Shown one piece after another: positions 29,237-64,000 of a DNA stretch of 64,000 nucleotides; within the stretch, counting starts at the first letter, position 1, and each line of letters begins with the position of its first letter. The stretch covers positions 1 through 64,000 of the forward strand of contig NZ_FOZK01000005.1 of the NCBI RefSeq assembly GCF_900114435.1, read 5' to 3'. The notes under the pieces are model-generated. The model was given only the letters and a program-made list of their open reading frames with translations, had not been told where the DNA came from and did not search any database. This DNA comes from Halomicrobium zhouii (lineage in GTDB: Archaea > Halobacteriota > Halobacteria > Halobacteriales > Haloarculaceae). Position numbers and translations under genes: made by a program.

Positions 29237-30139
29237 CTACGCGTCGTCGTCGTCCTCGTCGGCGGTGACGAACTCGTACAGGTCGTCGGCCGTCACGTCG
29301 ACGCCTTCGCCGGCGAAGAAGTTCGCGATGTTCTGACAGTCCCGTTCGAGGAACTCCCGGGCGTTGCCGTGGTGGGTCGTCACCGCCTGCCCGAGGTCGA
29401 TGACGACCAGCTGGCCCTCGTGGAAGACGATGTTGTACTCCGAGAGGTCGCCGTGGACGAGGCCGGCGCGGTGGAGCCGGCGCATGTACTCGCGGACCAC
29501 CTCGAAGGCCGTCTCGGGGTTCTCGACGTGGACCTCGTTGAGTCGCTTGGCCCGCCCGCCCTCGTCGGTGGCGATGTACTCCATGACGAGGACGTTGCGC
29601 TCGACGGCCAGCGGTTCCGGCGCCCGGACGCCCGCCGCGCGCGCTCGCTTGAGGTTGGCGAACTCCTTGCGGACCCAGGCGGTGACGACCTTCTTCTTGT
29701 CCGAGCCGATGCCCTCGAAGCGCGGGTCGCCGTCGAGGTACCCCCGCATGTCCTTGAAATCCGAGGCGTTGATGCGGTACACCTTGACGGCCACTTCCGG
29801 TGACTCCGCCCGGCCCAGTTCGTCGCGGGCGGTGTCGCCGCCCAGCGCGGTGTAGACGTTGGCCTCCTTGCCGGTCGAGATGGGACCGCCGAAGGCGTCG
29901 ATGTAGCCGTCCTGGACGAGCTTGTACAGCGCGCCGAAGGTGGCGTCGTCGAACACCGACGCCTCGACTTTGAACTGCTCGGTGTTCTTGATCCGCTTGC
30001 GCCACTGGCTGAACTCGCGGTCCCGCTCGCGGGCGATGCGGTCCGCGTCGGTGTCGGAGACGTCGATCTCTTCCCACTCGTCGCCGACGCCCTCGACCTC
30101 CTCGGGCTCCAGCAGGTCGAACTCCGCGTCGCCGGTCAT
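29237..30139 (-). CDS. rio1: Rio1 atypical protein kinase/ATPase
   Basis: A 300-residue RIO1 protein needed for final maturation of the small ribosomal subunit. The glycine-loop counterpart is STGKEANVYTALGG, the catalytic loop is VHGDLSEYNIVFH and the metal-binding motif is VIDLGQAV. The RIO N-lobe starts with TEQFKVEASVFDDATF. It begins 41 bases after the eif1A stop, the usual haloarchaeal order. Its functional partner Pno1 is encoded at 12639-13187. Confidence 0.95.
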   Translation of the reverse strand: MTGDAEFDLLEPEEVEGVGDEWEEIDVSDTDADRIARERDREFSQWRKRIKNTEQFKVEASVFDDATFGALYKLVQDGYIDAFGGPISTGKEANVYTALGGDTARDELGRAESPEVAVKVYRINASDFKDMRGYLDGDPRFEGIGSDKKKVVTAWVRKEFANLKRARAAGVRAPEPLAVERNVLVMEYIATDEGGRAKRLNEVHVENPETAFEVVREYMRRLHRAGLVHGDLSEYNIVFHEGQLVVIDLGQAVTTHHGNAREFLERDCQNIANFFAGEGVDVTADDLYEFVTADEDDDDA

Positions 30140-30180
30140 CGCCGCTCACCCGGGGCCGTGAGGAAAGTCATGTGAAGTGG

Positions 30181-30468
30181 CTACTCCTGGATGTGTCCCT
30201 CCTCGCGTAACTGGTCTGCCTCCTGCTTCTCGTAGCGCCACGTGATGTCGGCCTTCTCGTCCTGCCAGTCCCAGGGCTCGACGAGGACGACGTCGTCTTC
30301 GCGGATCCAGATCCGCTTTTGCATCTTGCCAGGGATGCGAGCAGTCCGCTCGGTCCCGTCCATACACCGGACCTCGACGCGGTTGGCTCCCAGCATGTTC
30401 GTCACGACGGCGAACACCTCGTCCTCGTCCGGCATGCGGAGATCTTTCCTGCTCTCGTTGTCGCTCAT
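30181..30468 (-). CDS. eif1A: Translation initiation factor aIF1A
   Basis: A 95-residue OB-fold factor that binds the A site of the small ribosomal subunit during initiation. Conserved stretches are [19 protein letters not shown] and [20 protein letters not shown]. The ATG at 30468 has an AACTTAACC box at 30492-30500, fitting a leaderless mRNA. First gene of the eif1A-rio1 unit. Confidence 0.97.
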
Positions 30469-30491
30469 GGTCGCCTCTTGGCCGGGGGGAC

Positions 30492-30500
30492 GGTTAAGTT
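30492..30500 (-). promoter_or_regulatory. TATA-like box of eif1A-rio1
   Basis: AACTTAACC on the minus strand, 24-32 bases before ATG 30468. Confidence 0.55.
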
Positions 30501-30567
30501 TTGCAAAAACTGCTCTCTGGAACAGTCGGAACCGCGTTTGTTGCTGCCGAGAGCGACTGTAACCACA

Positions 30568-30779
30568 AGAAAGCCCCGACGCGTTCACCTCCCGCGGGTC
30601 GTTGCGGTCCTTGCGTCCCCGGGGTTCGGTGAACGCGTCGCCCCTTTCAGTCCCGCCCGCCTGGTCAATCAAACCGGGCGGGACTGAAAGGGGCCGGTCG
30701 CTCGTGGAGCGAGACCCACCAAGCACGCCGAAGGCGCGCGCAGGTGCGGTCGCAGCCCACGAGCGACCGGGGGCTTTCT
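30568..30779. repeat. Nested palindromic element, copy A
   Basis: A non-coding element of about 210 bases between eif1A and the SCP2-like gene. Ends: AGAAAGCCCC (30568-30577) and GGGGCTTTCT (30770-30779). Inside are three perfect stems. The first pairs 30578-30589 with 30628-30639 (12 bases). The second pairs 30641-30659 with 30675-30693 (19 bases, containing CCCTTTCAGTCC). The third pairs 30696-30707 with 30757-30768 (12 bases). A CAAGCAC word sits in the last arm. Copies B (55.4 kb) and C (63.7 kb) keep the same order of motifs with different stem sequences. Confidence 0.8.
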
Positions 30780-30880
30780 GGTTCTACTTTTCGTTGGAGT
30801 TCCCACTCCTGCCACGAGCCTCTTCGATTCGACGTCGCGAGTGGTAACGTACAAAACCCGCCCGGCTAAAACACGGACAG

Positions 30881-31300
30881 ATGACGCCGACGTTGCCCGA
30901 CGAGGCCGACGCGTGGGTTCGCGCCTGGCGCGACCGGCTGAACGACTCGGAGGAGTTCGTCGACGCCGCTGGGGAGTTCGAGGCGGCGATACTGTTCGTC
31001 GTCCAGCCTGACGAGAGTTACGACGGCGACCCGGTCCGCATGCTCGTCGACGTGGCCGACGGCGAGTGCGTGACCGCGGCGGCAGTCGCTGTCGACGCCG
31101 ACAGGCAGTACGACTACGCGCTCCGGGGCCCTTACGCGGCCTGGAAGGCGCTCCTGCGGGACGAACTCGACACCGCCGAGGCGGTGATGGGCGGCCCCTT
31201 CGACGTCGAGGGCGACACCCTGGCGCTGATGAGCCACCGGAAGGCCTTCCTCGCGATGGTCGCGACGGCCCGCGACGTGGACGTCGAGTTCGCCCACTAG
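30881..31300 (+). CDS. SCP-2 sterol-transfer-like protein
   Basis: A 139-residue soluble protein resembling the SCP2 lipid-binding fold. It has an N-terminal helix with WVRAWRDRLNDSEEF and a beta sheet with EFEAAILFVVQPDE. It ends with GPFDVEGDTLALMSHRKAFLAM, the C-terminal helix region that closes the hydrophobic pocket. The ATG at 30881 follows an ACAAAAC box at about 30850. Its ligand, if any, is unknown. The palindromic element lies just upstream. Confidence 0.75.
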   Translation: MTPTLPDEADAWVRAWRDRLNDSEEFVDAAGEFEAAILFVVQPDESYDGDPVRMLVDVADGECVTAAAVAVDADRQYDYALRGPYAAWKALLRDELDTAEAVMGGPFDVEGDTLALMSHRKAFLAMVATARDVDVEFAH

Positions 31301-31358
31301 CCGACGGGACCGTTTCCGGACCGTAGCGCTTACCGCCGTGGCACTGGCAGGTGGGAGT

Positions 31359-31574
31359 ATGCTCGACAAACTCGGGATGGCCGGCATCCTCGGTGTGCTC
31401 GTCATGCTGGCCGGAATCGCCATCGTCGCCTGGCAGAACCTCTTCCTGGCCGCCGGCCTCGCCTTCGTCGTGGCCGGCATCGGACTCATCGTCTACGGCA
31501 TGGTCACGAACCTCCTCTCCGCGTTCGGCCTCGGCGGCGGTGGGATGGGCGGGATGGGCGGCGGTCTGCAGTAG
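31359..31574 (+). CDS. Small two-helix membrane protein with Gly-Met tail
   Basis: A 71-residue protein, almost entirely two membrane helices (about 7-26 and 30-55), ending in a Gly-Gly-Met-rich tail. ATG 31359 follows a GCTTACC box at 31327-31333. This small family is common in haloarchaea and of unknown function. It converges with the DUF460 gene, with 19 bases between stops. Confidence 0.75.
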   Translation: MLDKLGMAGILGVLVMLAGIAIVAWQNLFLAAGLAFVVAGIGLIVYGMVTNLLSAFGLGGGGMGGMGGGLQ

Positions 31575-55364: not shown

Positions 55365-55816
55365 GAAAGCCCTCGGCGCGCTCGCGGTCGCTCAACGGGA
55401 TACCCTCACGCCCGTTCGGGTAGGGCCCGCTGAGCGACTGCCTTCCAGCGCGACCGCACCTCGCCCTTTCATTCCTCCAGGACAGCATCGCTCGCGCGAT
55501 AAAACGCGCGAGCACTTCCCTCCCCACTCCTCCCCGGATTCGCGGCGTCCGCCGCGAATCACGCTTCCTGACCGCACCGCCCGGTGATCGGCCGGGAGCA
55601 CGTGCCCGAACGAATGTGAGGGCCGTGCGACCAGGGGAAGGGCAGGGCTGCTGTCCTGGGGGAATGAAAGGGTGAGGCGGGCTCCGGGAACCCCGGCCCA
55701 GCAAGCACCGGAACGAAGTGAGGAGCGCAGCGGGGCCGCGGGACCGGAGCGCGCCGAGGGCTTTCTGGTTGTCGTTGGATCCGAAGTCAGCTCCAGAGAG
55801 CGCGCCGAGGGCTTTC
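55365..55816. repeat. Nested palindromic element, copy B
   Basis: A non-coding element of about 400-450 bases. A perfect 19-base terminal inverted repeat (GAAAGCCCTCGGCGCGCTC) occurs at 55365-55383 and, inverted, at 55747-55765. The right end is repeated once more in direct orientation at 55798-55816. Subterminal CTCGCCCTTTCATTCCTCC (from 55460) pairs with a near-perfect inverse at about 55650-55678. Inner hairpins are GCTCGCGCG with CGCGCGAGC (about 55490-55514), and GATTCGCGGC with GCCGCGAATC (about 55538-55560). Reading frames across it are shadows. Up to 56007 no gene is seen. Confidence 0.85.
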
Positions 55817-56007
55817 TGGTTATTAGCTGTTGTAGGAGTCGCGGATCCAGCCACTCCAACAGGCCCGATCAAATCACGCCCTCCCCAGACTCCAGCGCCG
55901 TCCCTCGAATCCGCGTTCAAACCCGCCGAAGACGACCCAAAACCAACGACTTCGGAACACCGGAACAACCGCCAGAGCATTAGGACCGTCCGTCCAACCA
56001 GTGATCG
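55817..56007. other. Intergenic region before the second aldo/keto reductase
   Basis: No gene is supported; the region has lower GC than the coding sequence. It presumably holds the promoter of the downstream reductase, but no strong TATA box stands out. Confidence 0.4.
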
Positions 56008-63680: not shown

Positions 63681-64000
63681 AGAAAGCCCTCGCGGCGCTC
63701 GACCGCTCCGGGGCTCGCTGCGCTCCAGTTGGTGCTTGCGTCGCCCGGGAGGGTTCGACCGCCGCTCGCCCTTTCATTCCGCCAGGCCCGCTACCGCAGC
63801 CCTGCCCTTCCCCTGGTCGCGCGATGAAACGCGCTCCCGGCCGACCGCCGGGCGGTTGCGGGGCGGGCAGGAAGCGTGATTCGCGGCGGACGCCGCGAAT
63901 TCGGGGAGGTTTGGTGGTAATAATCGCGAGCGCGTTTCATCGCGCGAGCGAGGCTGGACCTGGCGGAATGAAAGGGCGAGGCGCGGTCGCGTGGGCTGAG
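63681..64000. repeat. Nested palindromic element, copy C (cut by window end)
   Basis: A non-coding element that begins with AGAAAGCCCTCGCGGCGCTC (63681-63700). The subterminal CTCGCCCTTTCATTCC (63765-63780) has its perfect 16-base inverse at 63965-63980. The inner hairpin around 63878-63901 (GATTCGCGGCG...) and GCGCG-type stems match copy B in reverse order. The right terminal motif would lie beyond base 64000. Confidence 0.8.

Follow-up and report, generated by a model that had tools for sequence, protein, structure and literature searches.

The locus and its related copies

The window, a stretch of 64,000 nucleotides from the Halomicrobium zhouii genome (G000), holds a palindromic element, copy A, between two diverging neighbors, a gene for translation initiation factor 1A (eIF-1A) and an SCP2-like open reading frame (ORF) (Table 1). 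Copy A spans 30568-30779 and is divided without gaps into a closing stem, a left, a middle and a right hairpin, and the return strand of the closing stem. The first-pass annotation had described a repeat with three perfect stems, and these are present where it placed them, with lengths of 12, 20 and 13 bp. The left stem pairs GACGCGTTCACC with GGTGAACGCGTC (30578-30589/30628-30639), the right stem pairs CGGTCGCTCGTGG with CCACGAGCGACCG (30695-30707/30757-30769), and the stem of the middle hairpin includes the shoulder motif CCTTTCAGTCC (30643-30653) and its inverse GGACTGAAAGG (30681-30691).

Table 1. Coordinates of copy A, its neighbors and related features.
Feature	Position	Strand	Remarks
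eIF-1A gene	30181-30468	-	PF01176, E 7.7e-27
Copy A, closing stem P0, 5' strand	30568-30577	.	end motif AGAAAGCCCC
Copy A, left arm hairpin	30578-30639	.	shortened loop
Copy A, middle hairpin P2	30640-30694	.	perfect 20-bp stem, 30640-30659/30675-30694
Copy A, right arm hairpin	30695-30769	.	internal CAAGCAC
Copy A, closing stem P0, 3' strand	30770-30779	.	GGGGCTTTCT
SCP2-like ORF	30881-31300	+	PF02036, E 3.5e-5
Copy B, long class	55365-55765	+	19-bp perfect end repeat, 55365-55383/55747-55765
Copy C, long class	63681-64000	-	inner part inverted relative to copy B
Plasmid region of about 470 nt with arm unit	L092:4470-5110		Natrinema thermotolerans CP031298

The inner part, conserved and about 200 nt long, is common to copies B and C. 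In copy B it measures about 185 nt and lies between shoulders at 55465-55475 and 55661-55671, while copy C runs past the window, its right end falling at about 64065 of the same contig (G000:C5). The order of parts that had been claimed for the three copies holds, but details of the ends and of CAAGCAC do not: the left end of copy B reads CGAAAGCCC, an extra end unit at 55809-55817 gives that copy a second right end 51 bp farther out, and the right arm of copy C lacks CAAGCAC, its left arm having GTGCTTG instead. Within the window, AGAAAGCCC occurs five times against 0.22 expected, and for CCTTTCANTCC, with up to one mismatch allowed, 2.06 occurrences are expected and six, none of them with a mismatch, are observed; the end motif is found far more often than chance predicts.

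Copy number and distribution

Across the genome of the window the shoulder motif CCTTTCANTCC has 193 matches, compared with 3 for a reversed-pattern control, and the element is one of many copies rather than of a few. Elsewhere in the genus the counts reach 226 in G006, 81 in G025 and 77 in G041, with few in most other genomes, so that they range from 2 to 226 within the genus. The earlier guess that similar repeats may occur in other genomes is amply borne out, since an extended motif turns up in 175 of the 292 Halobacteria genomes that were sampled, with very few matches for the control, and also in named genera such as Haloarcula, Halorussus, Natrinema and Haladaptatus. The distribution in Halobacteria is patchy and amplified. 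One G003 locus (C2:2733627-2733801) carries a tandem array in which CCTTTCAGTCC is repeated five times in one orientation, at a spacing of exactly 41 bp. No match was found among 50,697 phage records, and 70 pattern matches on viral contigs came one per contig and did not exceed a rough chance estimate for 14 specified bases. Neither Rfam nor the searchable papers, with most subscription journals lying outside that search, held a name or a description, in agreement with the first-pass annotation, which knew of no named family. A repeat present in more than half of the sampled Halobacteria genomes, and very abundant in some of them, is without a name in the searchable literature; the family is large, gene-less and apparently undescribed.

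Family anatomy

The family is built from units of about 105 nt, each composed of a conserved foot, GAAAGCCC(C/T), a hairpin, and a second conserved foot, GCCCTTTCANTCC. The basal stem of the hairpin varies and its internal loop is conserved, with TGCGCT opposite TGCTTG. A full element consists of two such units in inverted orientation, which renders the sequence foldable as a four-way junction on either strand. In the short class, to which copy A belongs with its 15-nt middle loop, a few tens of bases occupy the middle. In the long class this space spans 190-370 nt and includes conserved motifs, among them CACGCTTCCTGACCGC and GGGGAAGGGCAGGGC; this conserved inner part is asymmetric, and further out lie conserved, non-identical outer ends that bring the total to about 550 bp.

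Some long copies possess extra end units of 50 or 51 bp (GAAAGCCCTCGGCGCGCTCTCTGGAGTCGGAATC...). These flank the copies in tandem and in varying number, as seen in the window (55758-55817), at loci L030, L047 and L063, and in G006 (C16, 184898-185510). A coding repeat of 17 amino acids at the element ends was discarded as a reading, since the spacing of the units is not always 51 bp but can also be 50 bp.

In an automatic test, most of the short copies checked, from Halomicrobium and other genera, followed the order P0-arm-P2-arm with zero unpaired junction bases. The few that failed this gap-free four-way test had nested inserts or a different choice of ends.

Folding and covariation

The minimum-energy fold of copy A is a cloverleaf on both single DNA strands (z −11.2 and −11.6), and the same cloverleaf is obtained for RNA (z −12.1). 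A tRNA-like cloverleaf was considered and discarded; ARAGORN found no tRNA gene in 30000-31500.

Covariation was assessed in an extracted sample, a part of all copies, comprising initially 41 complete pairs and overall 114 distinct arm units. Watson-Crick pairs filled 373 of 403 arm-stem cells in the short class (216.5 ± 10.4 in shuffled sets), 675 of 884 in the long class (523 ± 10) and 343 of 400 in a cross-genus set (186 ± 10), although the shuffles ignore relatedness and closely related copies inflate the comparison. The covariation is confined to the two arm stems. In P0 and P2 the sequence is fixed and no covariation is seen, and therefore the end and middle stems lend no independent support to folding; we infer the closed four-way form from complementarity.

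The first-pass annotation had read stems that change while pairing is kept as a sign of selection. For the arms the observation stands; the end and middle stems are conserved in sequence. Selection, moreover, is not the sole reading of the matched arms, as hairpin-templated repair could also match stems.

DNA or RNA

The same annotation left it undecided whether the folded molecule was RNA or DNA. A structured non-coding RNA family, whose copies are transcribed and work as folded RNA, would explain the matched stems, and the very stable RNA fold, the strong arm covariation and the asymmetric inner part of the long copies are consistent with it. In structured RNA, G-U pairs should be tolerated and A-C mismatches avoided on the transcribed strand. 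Here, no excess of G-U over A-C appears in either orientation. Among arm-stem departures the G-T/A-C counts are 4/6 and 7/12, about equally rare; folds of all arms give 43/59 and the long inner parts 10/13. Departures in the long class are uneven, with 33 A-C and 12 G-T, mostly from two columns. Furthermore, within an element the strand that gives the more stable fold differs between the two arms, so that one transcript would carry non-equivalent arms, and the conserved core is a dyad with the same sequence on either strand. By rough heuristic gene calls, the neighboring genes are convergent at 12 sites, divergent at 11 and tandem at 17, which shows no preferred orientation by those calls. Every copy looked at is intergenic, as had been claimed. 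Rfam yielded zero matches in the window at the gathering threshold, and relaxing the threshold gave nothing credible, the sub-threshold miRNA-type matches being chance hairpin matches. Together with the disruption of the copy A ortholog described below, these observations make an RNA family quite unlikely.

DNA is favored because G-T is about as rare as A-C (in the short class and the all-arm folds), the core is a dyad and gene orientation is mixed. From the near equality of G-T and A-C, the arms that are stablest on opposite strands and the strand-symmetric conserved parts, we infer that the structure lies at the DNA level, and of the two molecules originally proposed DNA is thus the more likely. 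With hundreds of natural copies, DNA-level and RNA-level stem covariation can be told apart, which calls for caution before covarying repeats are called RNA.

Presence, absence and decay

Orthologous sites differ in whether they carry the element. At one Haloarcula site, one genome has a copy of about 385 bp placed after a stop codon and before the next promoter; two others of the 25 genomes have related or reduced copies there, and it is absent from most of the 25, some of which have nearly joined flanks. At a second Haloarcula site the repeat is complete, reduced to a remnant that has lost its core, or absent, depending on the genome, and an element of about 600 bp in G006 is absent from the genome of the window. 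These absences could partly be deletions. The direct repeat TAGCAGA flanks one Haloarcula copy; across 61 copies, flanking direct repeats do not exceed chance, and no target duplication above that level was detected in that set.

The ortholog of copy A in G006 retains the left stem, has two nested hairpin elements in the left arm, lacks the right arm, and carries an IS630-type element (DDE_3, PF13358) inside the shoulder motif; therefore the intact structure is dispensable at that site. In the copy B ortholog (G006:C16 178000-178540), a truncated copy adjoins an apparent IS200/IS605-type end sequence.

Such decay bears on the possibility that the repeat is a chromosomal site useful to the host, for instance a protein-binding or supercoiling-relief site between genes. 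Its intergenic placement with mixed gene orientation would suit such a role, yet motif counts run from near zero to more than 200 within one genus and the G006 ortholog is disrupted, and we hold this reading to be very unlikely.

The presence of Y1 transposase (TnpA) genes does not track copy number, and this enzyme was rejected as the driver. PF01797 matched nothing in the copy-rich genomes G029, G008, G018 and G041, of which G018 and G041 are incomplete, and matched several times in the copy-poor genomes G026, G034 and G042. No transposase was linked to the family. The repeat may point to a novel mobilising enzyme.

Nested elements, MITE-like context and a plasmid unit

The loops of arm hairpins contain nested two-hairpin elements of 51-58 nt, arranged as hairpin-TGATGA-hairpin-AACCA; other nested elements have the junctions GGCTC and GGNG. 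Their junctions are kept while their stems change. Those of 51-58 nt occur at L043, L061, L178, L203, L135 and other loci, and are common to several genera. At L164 (342-1217), about 860 nt separate the shoulders and contain a pair of similar ORFs for small membrane proteins, as though cargo had entered the middle loop. At L121 (1435-1805), L122 (1455-1830) and L120, a MITE-like repeat bounded by inverted GTGTTCAGATAAG ends encloses relatives of the core, and an apparent target duplication of 8-10 bp is present at L121 and L122.

The elements might also be passive palindromes, spread by ordinary recombination or inside captured MITEs, with stems matched through misaligned replication or repair and no selection on structure. 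The frequent swaps between C-G and G-C, with rare G-T intermediates, fit this account, as does the core that rides in a MITE-like repeat with other terminal repeats among Halomicrobium relatives. The feet, shoulder and internal loop, however, are conserved at fixed places across genera, so repair alone is insufficient as an explanation, and we regard the passive account as unlikely.

On haloarchaeal plasmids, a gene for an SSB/RPA-like protein with an OB fold is directly preceded by a non-coding region of about 470 nt that is conserved, and a lone arm unit lies a few tens of bases beyond this region at a near-constant distance (Table 1). The region matches 165 plasmid records, and the arm unit was detected in 43 of them. 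The region may serve in replication or transfer or be an RNA element, and the family may in this way point to a conserved plasmid region adjoining an SSB-like gene.

A probable mobile DNA family

On the sequence comparisons above, copy A probably belongs to a class-wide family of palindromic, non-autonomous mobile DNA in haloarchaea. The element would be moved or copied by a protein that acts in trans and recognises its conserved feet and loop when the DNA is single-stranded or cruciform. Matching in the arm stems may be maintained by hairpin repair, which would re-copy mutations from the arm's partner strand, and selection for a foldable arm may add to this.

A more specific proposal is that this class-wide mobile DNA is active as a folded four-way junction, read through its shape and junction sequence by a non-Y1 enzyme, with arms that rewrite themselves and stay matched, and that the plasmid unit beside the SSB-like gene is its functional ancestor. 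This proposal is speculative and, as a whole, rather doubtful.

Comparison with known systems

Among known repeats, SMR-A and PATE of Haloquadratum walsbyi (PMC3119063) are haloarchaeal, transposase-free, palindromic and numerous, and resemble the present family in the lack of detected target duplication, in core deletions and in nested insertion into palindromes. PATE has near-terminal palindromes related to IS605-type transposon ends and no target duplication; SMR-A comprises single elements of about 110 bp with prominent inverted ends and no duplication, which insert into PATE/IS605 palindromes (PMC3119063). Compared with these published descriptions, the present family differs in its two inverted hairpin units, its symmetric cloverleaf and its freely changing stems. 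On the features of PATE that were compared, it showed no duplication above chance in 61 copies and no tracking with TnpA.

MITEs are likewise short, lack a transposase gene and have inverted repeats, and the core is found inside one such MITE-like repeat. The family as a whole, however, has no common terminal repeat with target duplication, L121 and L122 being the exception: flanking direct repeats are not in excess and the outer ends of the long class are non-identical.

REP, BIME and REPIN sequences share inverted hairpin pairs, conserved feet, variable stems, an intergenic location and amplification in some genomes. As described in PMC3733652, they are palindromes of 20-40 bp whose foot carries GTAG or CGTC as a tag; compared with that description, the unit here is about 105 nt, its feet are GAAAGCCC and GCCCTTTCANTCC without such a tag, and it does not track with a Y1 (RAYT-type) transposase. 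We read the family as REPIN-, PATE- and SMR-like in style and file it as a member of none of these.
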